Origin: Pseudomonas syringae
Lineage (GTDB): Bacteria > Pseudomonadota > Gammaproteobacteria > Pseudomonadales > Pseudomonadaceae
Reading direction: 5' to 3'
Assembly (NCBI RefSeq): GCF_023278085.1
Contig: NZ_CP066265.1
Location: 1,642,501-1,706,500, forward strand
DNA length: 64,000 nt
Part shown: positions 1 through 57,261 of the stretch, in pieces
Numbering within the stretch: position 1 is the stretch's first letter
How the letters are laid out: each line of letters begins with the position of its first letter
Made by a program: the position numbers and the translations under genes
The notes under the pieces: generated by a model
Told to the model about the DNA's origin: nothing
The model's input: only the letters and a program-made list of their open reading frames with translations
Databases searched by the model: none

Positions 1-1176
1 AAGCACGGCGACAAGGACAGTGTGGAAAACCAGAAGAAGGTGGCCCGCGAGTTTGAATCGCTGTTCGTCAGCCAGATGCTCAAGGCCATGCGTTCGGCCA
101 ACGAAGTGCTGGCCAAGGACAACCCGATGAACACCGCGGCGACGCGGCAGTATCAGGACATGTATGACCAGCAACTGGCGGTCACGCTGTCCACCCGTGG
201 TAACGGCATTGGTTTGCAGGACGTGCTGATGCGCCAGTTGTCGAAAGACAAGGGCATAAACCACGCCGCTCCAGCCGATACGCTCGGCGCCGCCAAGGCT
301 GCAACGGCCGCTACTGACGCGGCGCCTGCCAAGACCGGTCTGGCGACCAGCATCTACCAGCGTCCACTGTGGGCAACGCGCTCGGCGGCGGCGGATCAGG
401 CGGCTGTCGCAGCGTCGGCATCCGGTGAAGGTCGCAACGACATGGCGGCGCTCAATTCGCGTCGTCTGTCCTTGCCGAGCAAGCTCACTGATCGACTTCT
501 TGCAGGCATTGTTCCTTCGGCGGCTACCGCAGTCAGTAACAGCCCTGCACCGGCTCGTGCAGCTTCCGGTACTGCCGGCAACAACGGTGACTGGACGCTC
601 GATCCGAACCTGGCGCCTGCGCCAGAGTACGTGCGCTCGATGGCGCAGCCGCCGCTGGCCCCGGCCAAACGTGCGTTCAGCAACGCCGATCAGTTCGTTG
701 AGACCATGTTGCCGCTGGCCAAGGAAGCCGCCGCGCGCATCGGCGTCGATCCGGTCATGTTGGTGGCCCAGGCTGCGCTGGAAACCGGCTGGGGCAAATC
801 GATCATGCGTCAGCAGGATGGCAGCAGCAGTCACAACCTGTTCGGTATCAAGGCTGCGGGTAGCTGGAAGGGCGCAGAGGCGCGCGCCATCACCAGCGAG
901 TTCCGTGACGGCAAGATGGTCAAGGAAACGGCAGACTTCCGCTCCTACGACTCTTATGCCGACAGCTTCCATGACCTGGTCAGCCTGTTGCAGAACAACA
1001 ATCGTTATAAAGAAGTGGTCAACTCGGCCGATAAACCAGAACAGTTTGTAAAAGAATTGCAGAAGGCTGGTTACGCCACCGACCCGGACTACGCAAGCAA
1101 GATTTCGCAGATTGCGAAGCAGATGAAGAGTTACCAGACGTACGCCGCTGCAACGGGCTCTTCCACGACTTTATAA
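1..1176 (+). CDS. flgJ: FlgJ, flagellar rod cap / peptidoglycan hydrolase (5' end outside window)
   Basis: FlgJ caps the growing rod and opens the peptidoglycan for it in the periplasm. The open frame runs in from base 1 (K-H-G-D-K-D-S before the first in-window GTG codon at 22), so the true start lies upstream. The visible N-terminal part carries the rod-scaffold signature (EFESLFVSQMLKAMR), then an Ala/Pro-rich linker (about residues 80-220), then a glucosaminidase/muramidase-type domain with the likely catalytic Glu at visible residue 261 (AALETGWGKS) and a GHNLFGIKA-like motif written here as SHNLFGIKA. The dual-domain form is normal for gammaproteobacteria. It ends 10 bp before flgK and belongs to the flg operon. 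Confidence 0.95.
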   Translation, partial: KHGDKDSVENQKKVAREFESLFVSQMLKAMRSANEVLAKDNPMNTAATRQYQDMYDQQLAVTLSTRGNGIGLQDVLMRQLSKDKGINHAAPADTLGAAKAATAATDAAPAKTGLATSIYQRPLWATRSAAADQAAVAASASGEGRNDMAALNSRRLSLPSKLTDRLLAGIVPSAATAVSNSPAPARAASGTAGNNGDWTLDPNLAPAPEYVRSMAQPPLAPAKRAFSNADQFVETMLPLAKEAAARIGVDPVMLVAQAALETGWGKSIMRQQDGSSSHNLFGIKAAGSWKGAEARAITSEFRDGKMVKETADFRSYDSYADSFHDLVSLLQNNNRYKEVVNSADKPEQFVKELQKAGYATDPDYASKISQIAKQMKSYQTYAAATGSSTTL

Positions 1177-12997: not shown

Positions 12998-13024
12998 TCA
13001 AGCAACCTGCCATTGCGACGATAA
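12998..13024 (+). promoter_or_regulatory. Sigma-28 (FliA) promoter of fliC
   Basis: TCAAG, 14 bp, then GACGATAA. This keeps the spacing of the enteric sigma-28 consensus (TAAAGTTT-N11-GCCGATAA). Transcription would start near 13031, giving a leader of about 75 nt before the fliC ATG. The rest of the 12829-12997 stretch is AT-rich with an A9 run and no gene. Confidence 0.85.
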
Positions 13025-14007: not shown

Positions 14008-14026
14008 GCTTTCAGAGGTGATGGTC

Positions 14027-16010: not shown

Positions 16011-16037
16011 TAAAGTTTCCGGGCACTGCGTCGATAG
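16011..16037 (+). promoter_or_regulatory. Sigma-28 promoter of fliS
   Basis: TAAAGTTT, 11 bp, then GTCGATAG: an exact -35 and spacing match to the sigma-28 consensus and 6 of 8 in the -10. It starts 5 bp after the fliD terminator, so fliS and the gene after it have their own late promoter. Confidence 0.82.
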
Positions 16038-42476: not shown

Positions 42477-43310
42477 ATGGGCAGCATGCATCCCGTACAG
42501 GTGATCGCGGTGACCGGCGGCAAAGGTGGCGTCGGTAAGACTAACGTGTCAGTGAACCTCTCGCTGGCCCTCGCCGAGCTTGGCCGGCGCGTCATGCTGC
42601 TGGATGCCGATCTTGGCCTGGCCAATGTCGACGTTCTGCTTGGGCTGACACCCAAACGGACGCTCGCCGATGTGATCGAGGGTCGCTGCGAGTTGCGCGA
42701 CGTTCTGTTGCAGGGGCCGGGTGGCGTTCGTATCGTGCCTGCTGCTTCCGGCACGCAGAGCATGGTGCATCTGTCTCCCGCCCAGCATGCCGGCTTGATC
42801 CAGGCGTTCAGCGAGATTGGCGACAATCTTGATGTGCTGGTGATCGACACGGCTGCCGGTATCGGTGAATCAGTGGTGAGCTTCGTGCGCGCTGCTCAGG
42901 AAGTACTGTTGGTGGTATGCGACGAGCCCACGTCGATCACCGATGCCTACGCCCTGATCAAGCTGCTCAATCGCGACTACGGCATGAACCGCTTCCGGGT
43001 ACTGGCCAACATGGCCCAGAGCCCGCAGGAAGGGCGCAACCTGTTCGCCAAACTGACCAAAGTAACAGACCGTTTTCTTGATGTTGCCCTGCAGTATGTG
43101 GGCGCCGTGCCGTACGACGAATGCGTGCGCAAGGCCGTGCAGAAACAGCGTGCCGTCTACGAAGCATTCCCGCGTTCCAAATGTGCACTGGCGTTCAAGG
43201 CCATTGCTCAGAAGGTTGATACCTGGCCGTTGCCAGCCAACCCGCGGGGTCATCTCGAGTTCTTCGTCGAGAGACTCGTCCACCAGACCAGCGCGGGGCC
43301 TGTGCAATGA
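42477..43310 (+). CDS. fleN: FleN (FlhG), MinD-like flagellar number regulator
   Basis: A 277-residue MinD/ParA-type ATPase with the deviant Walker A GGKGGVGKTNVSVNL and LLDADLGLANVD, LVIDTAAGIG. FleN binds FleQ and restrains it, keeping flagellar number low. The stop overlaps the fliA start by 4 bp. Confidence 0.96.
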   Translation: MGSMHPVQVIAVTGGKGGVGKTNVSVNLSLALAELGRRVMLLDADLGLANVDVLLGLTPKRTLADVIEGRCELRDVLLQGPGGVRIVPAASGTQSMVHLSPAQHAGLIQAFSEIGDNLDVLVIDTAAGIGESVVSFVRAAQEVLLVVCDEPTSITDAYALIKLLNRDYGMNRFRVLANMAQSPQEGRNLFAKLTKVTDRFLDVALQYVGAVPYDECVRKAVQKQRAVYEAFPRSKCALAFKAIAQKVDTWPLPANPRGHLEFFVERLVHQTSAGPVQ

Positions 43311-44047
43311 CTGCGAGCGGCTATCAGATGTACAGCAAGACTTCTCGTAACTCACAATATGAGCTGATCGAGCGGTATGCACCGCTGGTCAAGCGTATTG
43401 CCTACCATTTGCTGGCGCGTTTGCCGGCCAGTGTGCAGGTCGAGGATCTGATTCAGGCCGGCATGATCGGTCTGCTTGAAGTCTCCACCAAATACGATTC
43501 CACCAAGGGTGCGAGTTTCGAAACCTATGCCGGTATTCGCATCCGTGGAGCCATGCTCGACGAAGTGCGCAAGGGTGACTGGGCGCCTCGCTCGGTACAC
43601 CGCAATACCCGCATGGTCAGTGACGCAATTCGCGCAATTGAAGCTAAAACCGGACGTGACGCTAAAGATCACGAGGTTGCGGCCGAACTCCAGTTGAGTC
43701 TTGATGATTATTACGGGATTTTGAATGATACCTTGGGCAGCCGCCTCTTCAGTTTCGACGACCTGTTACAGGACGGCGATCATGAAGGGCTGCACGAGGA
43801 CGGCGCGAGCGGTTCGCTCGAGCCGTCGCGCGATCTGGAAGACGAGCGCTTCCAGGCCGCGTTGGCCGATGCAATTGCCAATTTGCCGGAGCGTGAGCGT
43901 CTGGTGTTGGCGCTGTACTATGACGAAGAGCTGAACCTGAAGGAAATCGGAGAGGTTCTAGGGGTCAGCGAATCGCGAGTCAGTCAGTTACACAGCCAGT
44001 GCGCAGCTCGTTTGCGAGGGCGTTTGGGGGAGTGGCGAGCGCGTTGA
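43307..44047 (+). CDS. fliA: FliA, flagellar sigma-28 factor
   Basis: The 246-residue sigma factor directs late flagellar genes (here fliC, fliS and probably the FlxA-like gene at 55390). Regions 2, 3 and 4 are clear: LVKRIAYHLLARLPASVQVEDLIQ, SFETYAGIRIRGAMLDEVRKGDW (both seen in part), and LYYDEELNLKEIGEVLGVSESRVSQLH. It is held by the anti-sigma factor FlgM until the hook is complete; flgM is outside the window. Confidence 0.97.
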   Translation: MTASGYQMYSKTSRNSQYELIERYAPLVKRIAYHLLARLPASVQVEDLIQAGMIGLLEVSTKYDSTKGASFETYAGIRIRGAMLDEVRKGDWAPRSVHRNTRMVSDAIRAIEAKTGRDAKDHEVAAELQLSLDDYYGILNDTLGSRLFSFDDLLQDGDHEGLHEDGASGSLEPSRDLEDERFQAALADAIANLPERERLVLALYYDEELNLKEIGEVLGVSESRVSQLHSQCAARLRGRLGEWRAR

Positions 44048-54505: not shown

Positions 54506-55237
54506 TCAGCTGTGCATCGCACCGCCCGCCAGCGCACACAGCTCGATAGGGTCAATGATGTGGATCTCCTTGCCCTGCGCCTGTATCAGCTCGTTTTGCT
54601 GAAAACGGGTGAACACCCGTGACACGGTTTCAACCGCCAGCCCCAGGTGATTGCCGATCTCGTTGCGCGACATGCTCAGCCTGAAATGATTGGCCGAAAA
54701 GCCCCGCGCCCGGAAGCGCGCCGACAGATTGACCAGAAAGGTGGCAATACGCTCGTCGGCTGTTTTCTTCGACAACAACAGCATCATTTGCTGATCGTCA
54801 CGGATCTCGCGGCTCATGACCCGCATCAGTTGTCGACGCAGTTGCGGCAGTTGGGCCGACAGTTCGTCCAGACGCTCGAACGGAATCTCGCAGATTGAGG
54901 TGGTTTCCAGCGCTTGCGCCGACACCGGATAGGCCCCGGCGTCCATGCCCGACATGCCCACCAGTTCGCTGGGCAGGTGGAAGCCGGTGAGCTGTTCTTC
55001 ACCGCCGTCACTGATATTGAAGGTTTTCAGGGCGCCGGAACGTACTGCGTATACCGATTCGAAGGTATCCCCCTGACGAAACAGGAACTCGCCTTTCTTC
55101 AGCGGGCGGCCGCGCTTGACGATCTGGTCAAGCGAGTCCATATCTTCAAGATTCAGCGAGAGGGGCAGGCAGAGCGGTGCGAGACTGCAATCCTTGCAAT
55201 GAGCCTGGGTTTGAGCGCGTTTTACTGGCTCGGACAT
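54506..55237 (-). CDS. anr: Anr, FNR-type oxygen-sensing regulator
   Basis: Anr (243 residues) is the Pseudomonas FNR: it binds TTGAT-N4-ATCAA sites when oxygen is low. Four cysteines for an oxygen-labile [4Fe-4S] cluster are visible ([10 protein letters not shown] near residues 14-23, plus a later Cys in [10 protein letters not shown]), followed by the cyclic-nucleotide-like domain and the C-terminal helix-turn-helix with the FNR recognition helix ([14 protein letters not shown]). The start is ATG 55237, with AAGGA eight bases upstream; a GTG just before is less likely. Targets are next door: hemN and probably the cco genes. Confidence 0.94.
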
Positions 55238-55326
55238 CACTTGATTCCTTGTGGTAAATCACACATAGGTCGTAAGGGTAACCCACCCTTGCCAGACGGG
55301 GCCAGCTTCGAAGGCCATCTGCTTCA

Positions 55327-55353
55327 TCAAGCTTCCCGCCGGAATGCCGATAG
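55327..55353 (+). promoter_or_regulatory. Sigma-28 promoter of the FlxA-like gene
   Basis: TCAAG, 14 bp, then GCCGATAG: the same layout as the fliC promoter (TCAAG-N14-GACGATAA) and 7 of 8 in the -10. It would start transcription near 55360, 30 bp before the ATG. Confidence 0.78.
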
Positions 55354-55389
55354 ACCTGTATCTCTCCAGCTGACTCAGGATGCCTTGCC

Positions 55390-55866
55390 ATGTCAACGAC
55401 AGTTCCGTTGATCAACAGCATTACGATACGTACCGCGACCTCGCAGATCACCTACAGCCAGGCCAATGACAAATCTGTCGAGGCGCCTGCCGGCAATGCA
55501 AAGAGTGTGGAGGTCAATCTTTCAGCCGAGGGCAGGGCGGCAGCAGCCTCTGCACGGTCCGGTTCGAAAGACGCCGATATCGAAAATAGCGGTCTGCCTT
55601 CTTCTGTGCAGAAAATCCTCAAATCGATACGCGAATTGCAGCGCAAGATCGAAGAAACCACTGATCAGATTCAGAAAGTTCTGGCCGACAGAACGCTTAC
55701 CCGTGAAGAGCGCCAGACCAAGGCCGCAGCGCTGCAAACCGTGCTTTCCACGTTGCAGGCTCAGGTGAGCAATTCCACCGCTGATCTGTCTTCGCTGATG
55801 AACAGCCTCGGTTCCAGCGATGCCGACAAGACAACAGCCGGTATGCTGGTGCTGGCCAAGATGTAA
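55390..55866 (+). CDS. FlxA-like coiled-coil protein, candidate FliA-regulon member
   Basis: A 158-residue protein without signal peptide or membrane segment. The N-terminal third is Ser/Thr-rich (TTVPLINSITIRTATSQITY); from about residue 75 a coiled coil follows (VQKILKSIRELQRKIEETTD, then LTREERQTKAAALQTVLSTL). The latter resembles E. coli FlxA, a sigma-28-dependent protein of unknown function, and a sigma-28 promoter lies just upstream here. No reaction or partner can be named. It is divergent from anr and ends 12 bp before the convergent hemN stop. Confidence 0.8.
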   Translation: MSTTVPLINSITIRTATSQITYSQANDKSVEAPAGNAKSVEVNLSAEGRAAAASARSGSKDADIENSGLPSSVQKILKSIRELQRKIEETTDQIQKVLADRTLTREERQTKAAALQTVLSTLQAQVSNSTADLSSLMNSLGSSDADKTTAGMLVLAKM

Positions 55867-55878
55867 GGATGCACAGGA

Positions 55879-57261
55879 TCAGATGGCGCGGGAAAAGCGC
55901 TGTCTGTTTTGCCGGGTCAGATAGGCGTCAAATACCATGCACACCGAGCGCACCAGCAGCCTGCCCGCCGGCAGTACCCGGATGCCCTCGTTGTTCAGCG
56001 CAATCAGCCCGTCCTCGGTCATCTGGGTCAGTTGCGGCCACAGTTCGCTGAAATAAGCTGAGAAGTCGATACCGAAGCTGTGCTCGATTTCGGCGAAATC
56101 CAGCGTGAAGTGGCAGATCAACTGCTGGATGATTGCACGTCTGATCCGGTCATCCTCGCTGCAGATCAGCCCTCGTCGGGTCGCCGGTTGATCGCTGTCC
56201 AGCAGCCTTTGGTATTCGTTCAGGTCGCTGCTGTTCTGGCTGTACAGATCGCCGATCTGACTGATGGCCGAGACACCCAGGCCGATCAGGTCGCAATGAG
56301 CCTTGGGTGTGTAGCCCTGAAAATTGCGTTTCAGGGTCAGGTCTTCCTGAGCGATCGCCAGTTCGTCGTCGGGCAGGGCGAAGTGGTCCATGCCGATGTA
56401 GCGATAGCCTGCGCCGGTCAGTTGCTCGATGGTGCGCTGCAGCATGAGCCATTTCGTTTGCGCATCCGGCAGGTCGGCTGCGTCAATGCGGCGCTGTGGC
56501 ATGAAGCGTTCCGGCAGGTGGGCGTAGTTGAACACGGAGAGTCGATCAGGCTGCAACGCGATGATTTCATCCACTGTGCGACTGAAGGTCTCCGGGGTCT
56601 GTTTTGGCAGGCCGTAAATCAAATCGATATTGACCGAGCGAAATTGCAGCGTGCGTGCTGCTTCGACGATAGCGCGTGTCTCTTCCAGGGTTTGCAGGCG
56701 GTTGATCGCACGCTGCACGGTCGGGTCCAGATCCTGTACGCCGAGACTCACCCGGTTGAAGCCCAGTTCGCGCAACAGACCCATGCTCGCCCAGTCTGCC
56801 TCGCGGGGATCGATCTCGATGCCGTAATCCCCTGAGTCGTCCTCCAGCAGGTTGAAATGACTACGTAACTGCGCCATCAACCGGCGCAGCTCATGGTGGC
56901 TGAGAAAGGTCGGTGTGCCGCCGCCCAGGTGCAGTTGCTCCACCACCTGACCGGGCGACAGATGGCAGGCGAGCATCCGGATTTCCTGCTCGAGCCGCTT
57001 CAGGTAAGCCTGCGCTCGCCCGCGATCCTTGGTAATGACTTTGTTGCAGGCACAGTAGTAGCAAATGTTCGCGCAGAAGGGCAGGTGCACGTAAAGGGAC
57101 AGTGAGCGCCGTGCCTTGCGGCTTTCGCGCAGGGCGTGCAGCAGGTCGAATGCACCCACCTGAGTATGAAATTGCACCGCGGTCGGATAGGACGTGTAGC
57201 GTGGTCCGGCGACGTCGTAGCGATGGATCAGATCTGAATCCCAGCGAATGGCGCCGAACAT
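55879..57261 (-). CDS. hemN: HemN, oxygen-independent coproporphyrinogen III oxidase
   Basis: Radical SAM enzyme that makes protoporphyrinogen IX for haem without oxygen. The 460-residue protein has the cluster motif CxxxCxxC at Cys63, Cys67 and Cys70 (PFCANICYYCACNK), GGGTPTF for SAM binding, and the HemN C-terminal domain. An ANR box lies upstream at the class-II position, so it should be induced when oxygen falls, together with the cbb3 oxidase that needs haem. Confidence 0.96.
   Translation of the reverse strand: MFGAIRWDSDLIHRYDVAGPRYTSYPTAVQFHTQVGAFDLLHALRESRKARRSLSLYVHLPFCANICYYCACNKVITKDRGRAQAYLKRLEQEIRMLACHLSPGQVVEQLHLGGGTPTFLSHHELRRLMAQLRSHFNLLEDDSGDYGIEIDPREADWASMGLLRELGFNRVSLGVQDLDPTVQRAINRLQTLEETRAIVEAARTLQFRSVNIDLIYGLPKQTPETFSRTVDEIIALQPDRLSVFNYAHLPERFMPQRRIDAADLPDAQTKWLMLQRTIEQLTGAGYRYIGMDHFALPDDELAIAQEDLTLKRNFQGYTPKAHCDLIGLGVSAISQIGDLYSQNSSDLNEYQRLLDSDQPATRRGLICSEDDRIRRAIIQQLICHFTLDFAEIEHSFGIDFSAYFSELWPQLTQMTEDGLIALNNEGIRVLPAGRLLVRSVCMVFDAYLTRQNRQRFSRAI

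Follow-up and report, generated by a model that had tools for sequence, protein, structure and literature searches.

A divergent FlxA-like gene between anr and hemN of Pseudomonas syringae is preceded by a conserved FliA-type promoter

Introduction

Within a 64,000-nucleotide stretch of the Pseudomonas syringae genome (assembly GCF_023278085.1, contig NZ_CP066265.1, positions 1,642,501 to 1,706,500 of the forward strand), hereafter referred to as the window, a small gene for a coiled-coil protein starts at position 55390, between anr and hemN. The question that this locus raises is why a gene at such a place should be preceded by a promoter of the kind found upstream of fliC, and what its product might do. 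The original prediction, made from the letters of the window, proposed that the gene encodes a conserved and undescribed late flagellar protein that resembles FlxA of Escherichia coli and is transcribed from a near-consensus sigma-28 (FliA) promoter. Here, we followed up this proposal by comparing the gene, its promoter, and its product with homologous loci and with known late flagellar proteins.

The gene between anr and hemN

The features discussed throughout are collected in Table 1. Since the flanking genes anr and hemN both lie on the opposite strand, the window gene is solitary; its end (55866) is separated by 12 bases from the end of the convergent hemN (55879, minus strand). In 28 pairwise comparisons among eight orthologues from the P. 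syringae group, dN/dS ranged from 0.10 to 0.24, with some dS values near or above 1. The open reading frame 55390-55866 is therefore a real gene under purifying selection. The mean dN/dS of the same eight orthologues was 0.24 for residues 1-62 compared to 0.15 elsewhere. The gene is thus conserved, as had been proposed, both in the sense of purifying selection within the P. syringae group and as a member of a protein family found throughout the genus Pseudomonas (see below).

Table 1. Positions of the window gene, its promoter, its neighbours, and related features. Coordinates refer to the window unless a genome and contig are given.
Feature	Coordinates	Strand	Basis
FliA (sigma-28)-type promoter of the window gene: TCAAG (-35) 55327-55331, 14-base spacer 55332-55345, GCCGATAG (-10) 55346-55353	55327..55353	+	exact match; conserved boxes
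FlxA-like coiled-coil protein gene (window gene), 158 aa	55390..55866	+	open frame; dN/dS 0.10-0.24
N-terminal part, residues 1-62, Ser/Thr/Ala-rich, holds VxVxLSxxG (residues 40-48)	55390..55575	+	AlphaFold2 model; alignment
DIxxSxLP motif (from residue 63), then predicted helical hairpin	55576..55866	+	AlphaFold2 model; alignment
anr, divergent neighbour, syntenic anchor	54506..55240	-	ORF list; name by eye; N-terminal Cys motif AHCKDC
hemN, convergent neighbour, syntenic anchor	55879..57261	-	ORF list; name by eye
fliC promoter, comparison site, TCAAG-N14-GACGATA	12998..13023	+	motif match, 1 mismatch
fliA, sigma factor inferred to read the window-gene promoter	43307..44047	+	ORF; name by eye; as query matched in 16/17 genomes
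Second family member of the same genome	G000:C1:2719193-2719669		exact site TCAAG-N14-GCCGATA; no Pfam match
Third family member of the same genome, FlxA-type	G000:C1:3957448-3957885		weaker site TGCAG-N14-GCCGATA; PF14282 28.9 bits
Genes at L002, L004, the window gene, L007 and L008 (unknown gene, methyltransferase-like, window gene, paralogue, and chemoreceptor, respectively)			exact sites near starts; names by eye

A FliA-type promoter and its conservation

The putative promoter is located in the intergenic region between the divergent anr start (55240) and the open reading frame, with GCCGATA at 55346-55352 and the ATG at 55390 following 37 bases later. TCAAG-N14-GCCGATA occurs without mismatch at 55327 alone within the 64-kb window. 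When up to two mismatches were allowed, the window contained 17 motif matches compared to 3.81 expected, the maximum among 100 shuffles being 9. The layout corresponds to that of the fliC promoter, as the original prediction had stated, which differs by one mismatch. A search for a sigma-70-type promoter in the region 55200-56000 did not reveal any site, where chance would give just 0.4.

In the whole 5.6-Mb genome, we found eight exact sites of the form TMAAG-N14-GCCGATA. Five of these are located 32-50 nt upstream of a start codon, and two of these five precede members of the protein family to which the window gene belongs. The exact sites at L003 and L009 lie within open frames, the former also 128 nt upstream of a candidate start. 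Allowing one mismatch increased the number to 91 sites genome-wide compared to 69 for the backwards pattern, so that the loose motif by itself is weak evidence.

Three individual sites may be noted, two of which (L005 and L002) belong to the eight exact ones. An exact TAAAG-N14-GCCGATA at 1008-1033 (+) of the window (L005) lies late in the flgJ frame, 153 nt upstream of the flgK start; in E. coli, a FliA site is assigned to flgKL as well (PMC4183435). At 16011-16036 (+), TAAAGTTT-N11-GTCGATA is found 40 nt upstream of the fliS start (16077) and is a likely FliA site for fliS; for Pseudomonas putida, a flagellar review gives fliS and fliD as FliA-dependent (PMC8036289). The third site, an exact TAAAG-N14-GCCGATA, is located 50 nt upstream of the ATG of an open reading frame of 235 aa with a Thr/Ser-rich start (L002, 743-1450, minus strand), for the first 180 residues of which no Pfam match at E <=0.01 was obtained.

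To judge the promoter by its conservation, we scored 91 homologous loci, comprising the 31 with the best E-values, the 40 ranked next, and the 20 lowest among the matches listed, a non-random set with many close relatives. Every spacer from 10 to 19 was considered in the region from -250 to +60 around the start of the profile match, and the boxes were scored out of 12; all 91 loci were scorable. At spacer 14, a score of at least 11 was reached in 88/91 loci, with 35 scoring 12/12 and 53 scoring 11. One locus (L081) scored 10 and two (L047 and L108) scored 8 at this spacer; the latter two carry boxes with a score of at least 11 at spacer 13. Such scores occurred at other spacers in two loci (spacer 13), in one locus (spacer 19), and in none of the 91 at the remaining spacers in the range. 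The controls gave a score of at least 11 in 0/91 reversed regions, in 0/91 cases on the opposite strand, in 1 of 2,872 windows taken elsewhere in these loci, and in 11 of 9,100 first-order shuffles.

The information content per column was 1.72 bits in the boxes, 0.17 in the spacer, and 0.38 in the flanks for 66 loci between anr and hemN, and 1.68, 0.11, and 0.26 bits, respectively, for 88 loci. The boxes are conserved while the letters of the spacer are free, and the pattern therefore reflects more than shared ancestry of the region. The chosen start codon lies 26-46 nt past the -10 box in 87/90 loci, a spacing that is partly given by construction because starts were chosen 18-90 nt from the site. 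Among the FlxA-type loci, of which the 30 best-scoring were considered, a score of at least 10 at spacer 14 was found in 25/30 and of at least 11 in 12/30, compared to a score of at least 10 in 0-6/30 at other spacers and in 1/30 when reversed. A relative from the same order (G763) has TAAAG-N14-GTCGATA 98 nt upstream of the ATG.

The original prediction was to be abandoned if the -35/-10 pair were not conserved in orthologous loci. This pair is conserved at spacer 14 in all but three of the loci scored, and the near-consensus promoter that had been proposed is borne out by the exact box pair at 55327 together with its retention in nearly all homologous loci examined. We regard this conservation as the decisive support for the candidate promoter of the window gene. 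A gene of the FliA regulon should carry TMAAG-N14-GCCGATA upstream and keep it in its homologues, and this is what we found for the window gene, suggesting, on the basis of sequence, a putative FliA dependence.

Distribution and copies of the family

A first search returned 21 proteins, the named species among which we take to belong to the P. syringae group. A profile built from 19 sequences matched in 214 of 398 Pseudomonas genomes (E <=0.01), and a broader profile of 45 sequences in 88 of 99 (E <=0.001), often with two to four matches per genome, FlxA-type paralogues included. In a class-wide profile search, in which up to 10 candidates were scored per genome, 3/369 genomes matched: the genome under study, one genome of the same order, and G537, whose weak match contains stop codons and was set aside. 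Within the samples searched, the family is thus nearly restricted to a single genus. A member is also present in a strain of P. putida.

The genome under study harbours three family members (Table 1), and the same promoter type is found upstream of Pseudomonas paralogues. Inspection of the flanks (~1.5 kb) of 90 loci revealed both anr and hemN in 67 cases, anr alone in four, and neither in 19. In a midpoint-rooted tree with long branches, the 71 anr-flanked copies are split by a branch with support 99/98 into one group of 17, to which the window gene belongs, and another of 54. The broad profile had no match in 11 Pseudomonas genomes; three of these were matched by a FlxA-type query, and fliA is present in 10 of them. 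Because these 10 carry fliA, the family protein is accessory and dispensable for having flagella.

Two additional observations concern individual members. In G018, two members are located ~13 kb apart (G018:C1:1796053-1796532 and 1809724-1810185); the second lies between anr and hemN, and the first scores far better with the broad than with the P. syringae-type profile. Database names of homologues include 'chemotaxis protein', 'VCBS domain-containing protein', 'paraquat-inducible protein B', and 'prefoldin subunit 5', with no visible basis.

Relation to FlxA

The window protein scored 23.3 bits against the FlxA-like family PF14282 with hmmscan and 28.6 bits as a six-frame match, the curated cut-off being 26.3. 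The FlxA-type paralogue of the same genome passes this cut-off with a score higher than that of the window protein (28.9 bits), and E. coli FlxA reaches 53.8 bits. Among the 45 family members, nine matched PF14282 and 10 matched the unrelated coiled-coil family PF04513 at E <=0.01, which speaks against the link to FlxA. PF14282 was matched by 8 of 14 FlxA-type proteins at the same threshold. A profile-profile comparison of the 45 family members with the 14 FlxA-type proteins gave a probability of 98.1% (E 9e-14), to which coiled-coil bias possibly contributes. Across 321 genomes belonging to the class, PF14282 was matched at E <=1e-5 in the genome under study alone, and in 0/14 control genomes. 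We also compared the family profile directly with the single E. coli FlxA sequence, which gave a non-significant result (4.8%).

Based on the PF14282 scores and the profile-profile comparison, we place the window gene in a wider FlxA superfamily, with formal PF14282 membership of its product at the edge. Homology to accepted members of PF14282 is indicated by the profile match to the FlxA-type proteins, and the resemblance to FlxA noted in the original prediction thus holds at the level of the family, whose third member in this genome itself passes PF14282.

E. coli K-12 FlxA (b1566, PF14282), encoded in the Qin prophage, is likewise small, with a Ser/Thr-rich start and a coiled-coil part, and its gene is preceded by the FliA promoter TAAAG-N14-GCCGATAG, from the GCCGATA of which 24 nt separate the ATG. 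There, flxA is described as FliA-dependent, with a FliA site found by ChIP-seq, and as having no obvious flagellar function (PMC4183435). E. coli FlxA differs from the window protein in its length of 110 aa, in being prophage-borne, and in its far higher score against PF14282; judged by eye, it also lacks the VxVxLS and DIxxSxLP motifs of the window family. The Pseudomonas FlxA-type paralogues share the layout, the FliA-type site at spacer 14, and a similar coiled-coil part with the window gene. They differ from it in a conserved C-terminus of the VxTxA type, in a weaker -35 box and, in several cases, in a start of the MTTINTSxL type. In the FlxA-type paralogues L132-L161, a variable stretch that is often rich in Gly and Ser precedes a conserved extreme C-terminus such as VSTTA, VNTTA, or VDTHA.

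Protein make-up and predicted structure

The AlphaFold2 model of the window protein was built on 65 sequences and is of moderate quality (mean pLDDT 65.1, pTM 0.45). Residues 1-45 are predicted to be disordered (pLDDT <50), followed by a low-confidence helix (46-60), a hairpin of two helices (71-99 and 105-139), and a short helix (144-156); the block pLDDT over residues 71-140 is 79-85. Residues invariant in 45 sequences are V42 and S45 of the VxVxLSxxG motif, D63, I64, and L69 of the DIxxSxLP motif, as well as L77 and R81. A fold search of the PDB with the model gave a best E-value of 0.32, with generic helical hairpins and designed proteins as matches. A sequence search against solved structures returned inhibitor of growth protein 5 as the best match (E 0.022), which was rejected, and Pfam matches such as PEP, SKA2, and ING were judged to be coiled-coil cross-matches.

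Cysteine is absent from all 14,139 residues of 90 family proteins, and tryptophan accounts for 0.04% of them, in six proteins. Among the proteins encoded in the window, with names assigned by eye, FliC, FlgK, FlgL, and FliD lack both Cys and Trp, whereas FliA, FlhA, CheA, and FleQ contain both; FliT has two Cys and one Trp, and FliS one Trp. The FliN- and FliO-like proteins, which are not exported, have no Cys but contain Trp. The window protein shows no hydrophobic, membrane, or signal-peptide-like stretch (top 19-residue mean 0.47), and a hydrophobic stretch above 1.6 was found in one of the 90 family members.

Discussion

The FliA-type promoter is kept in nearly all related copies examined, and the product of the window gene is therefore likely to be a late flagellar protein. 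With moderate confidence, we propose that gene 55390 encodes a divergent FlxA-like protein, carries a conserved FliA-type promoter, likely belongs to the late flagellar regulon, and that its product is predicted to leave the cell through flagellar type III export after hook completion. In such a sequence of events, FliA would be freed when FlgM exits the cell and would transcribe the window gene alongside flagellin. The disordered, cysteine-free N-terminal part could then serve as an export signal, with which the FlxA-like protein would pass the flagellar type III export gate after hook completion. The helical hairpin might pair with a partner of the filament or cap, either extracellularly or within the channel, and might thereby tune filament growth, surface swimming, or attachment.

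A substrate of this pathway would have a loose N-terminus without Cys and Trp and neither a Sec signal nor a membrane helix, which is what we observed for the window protein. Its make-up is thus compatible with, and suggestive of, flagellar type III export, although coiled-coil proteins often lack both residues. The main rival to export is a FliA-controlled helper that stays inside the cell and, like FliS, FliT, and FlgN, would assist a late export substrate, with the hairpin as the chaperone or scaffold. FliA control would be shared by both, and a predicted helical hairpin of chaperone-like size in a protein devoid of signal-peptide-like or membrane stretches would suit a cytoplasmic chaperone. 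Against this stand the absence of the FliS, FliT, and FlgN families among the 21 Pfam families matched at E <=10, the lack of an adjoining partner gene for the solitary gene between anr and hemN, the several paralogues per genome, and a long disordered N-terminus without Cys and Trp, unlike FliT and FliS of the window. We consider a chaperone role possible but rather unlikely.

The position between anr and hemN, with no flagellar neighbour, is a point against the export reading that we favour. It would fit a gene that is transcribed by FliA but serves a purpose outside the flagellum, such as surface sensing or c-di-GMP-linked attachment, with the flagellar programme as a mere clock. The case of E. 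coli flxA, which combines FliA dependence with no obvious flagellar function (PMC4183435), and the fact that the family is not universal among genomes with fliA are in line with this idea, whereas the near-confinement to one genus among the samples searched and the recurrence of copies preceded by FliA-type sites point to a link with the flagellum of Pseudomonas, and we regard a purely non-flagellar role as improbable. Slightly more doubtful still is a second FlgM-like regulator that would be induced by FliA, bind FliA or another regulator, and damp late gene expression. FlgM, the anti-FliA factor (PF04316), is an exported protein; like the window protein, it is small and late, with a loose N-terminus and an SVxLSxE motif, as is seen when SVNLSAEGKS of FlgM from a genome of the same order (L162) is set beside VEVNLSAEGRA of the window protein. 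Homology to FlgM, which this motif had brought up, was rejected on the basis of a profile-profile comparison with 10 FlgM sequences in hhalign (7.2% probability); in addition, the window protein has no PF04316 match, and a separate FlgM is present in the same genome.

Returning to the late flagellar export substrate that we favour, a further point of comparison is the FleL/FlaG-like protein (named by eye) encoded around position 14012 of the window, which is small, lacks Cys and Trp, and lies near fliC and its FliA-type promoter. It differs from the window gene in adjoining fliC. According to a review, fleL is a class IV gene and controls filament length (PMC8036289).

Within the literature searched, we found no function for the window gene or its homologues, nothing on 'FlxA-like', nothing joining FlxA, flagella, and coiled coil, and, by title, nothing on a Pseudomonas FlxA. 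Largely judged by title, the description of the gene as undescribed therefore stands within this literature. In Pseudomonas aeruginosa, the gene between anr and hemN is presumably PA1545, and the accessible parts of the literature on it touch on no flagellar topic. A frameshift in PA1545, which may belong to the family, recurs in hypermutator lines evolved under the CZA drug combination (PMC9718400), and the part available of PMC3602303 names no gene at the place between anr and hemN. A 2021 review of Pseudomonas flagella gives fliC, fleL, che, mot, and flgM/N as notable class IV (FliA) genes and, in the portion available, does not mention FlxA (PMC8036289). Experimental FliA dependence may already sit unremarked in the supplements of a P. 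aeruginosa FliA-regulon study (PMC4362757).

As a tentative and rather speculative generalization, FlxA-like proteins might be general, overlooked late flagellar export substrates, which in Pseudomonas would form a multi-copy and fast-diverging set of soluble, filament-associated coat or cap helpers, timed with flagellin and secreted through the hook. Given a genus-wide family that occurs in several copies and keeps its FliA-type promoter, the role of FlxA becomes testable in bacteria with a polar flagellum. In addition, assignment of its members as FlxA-like would supplant database labels such as 'chemotaxis protein'.
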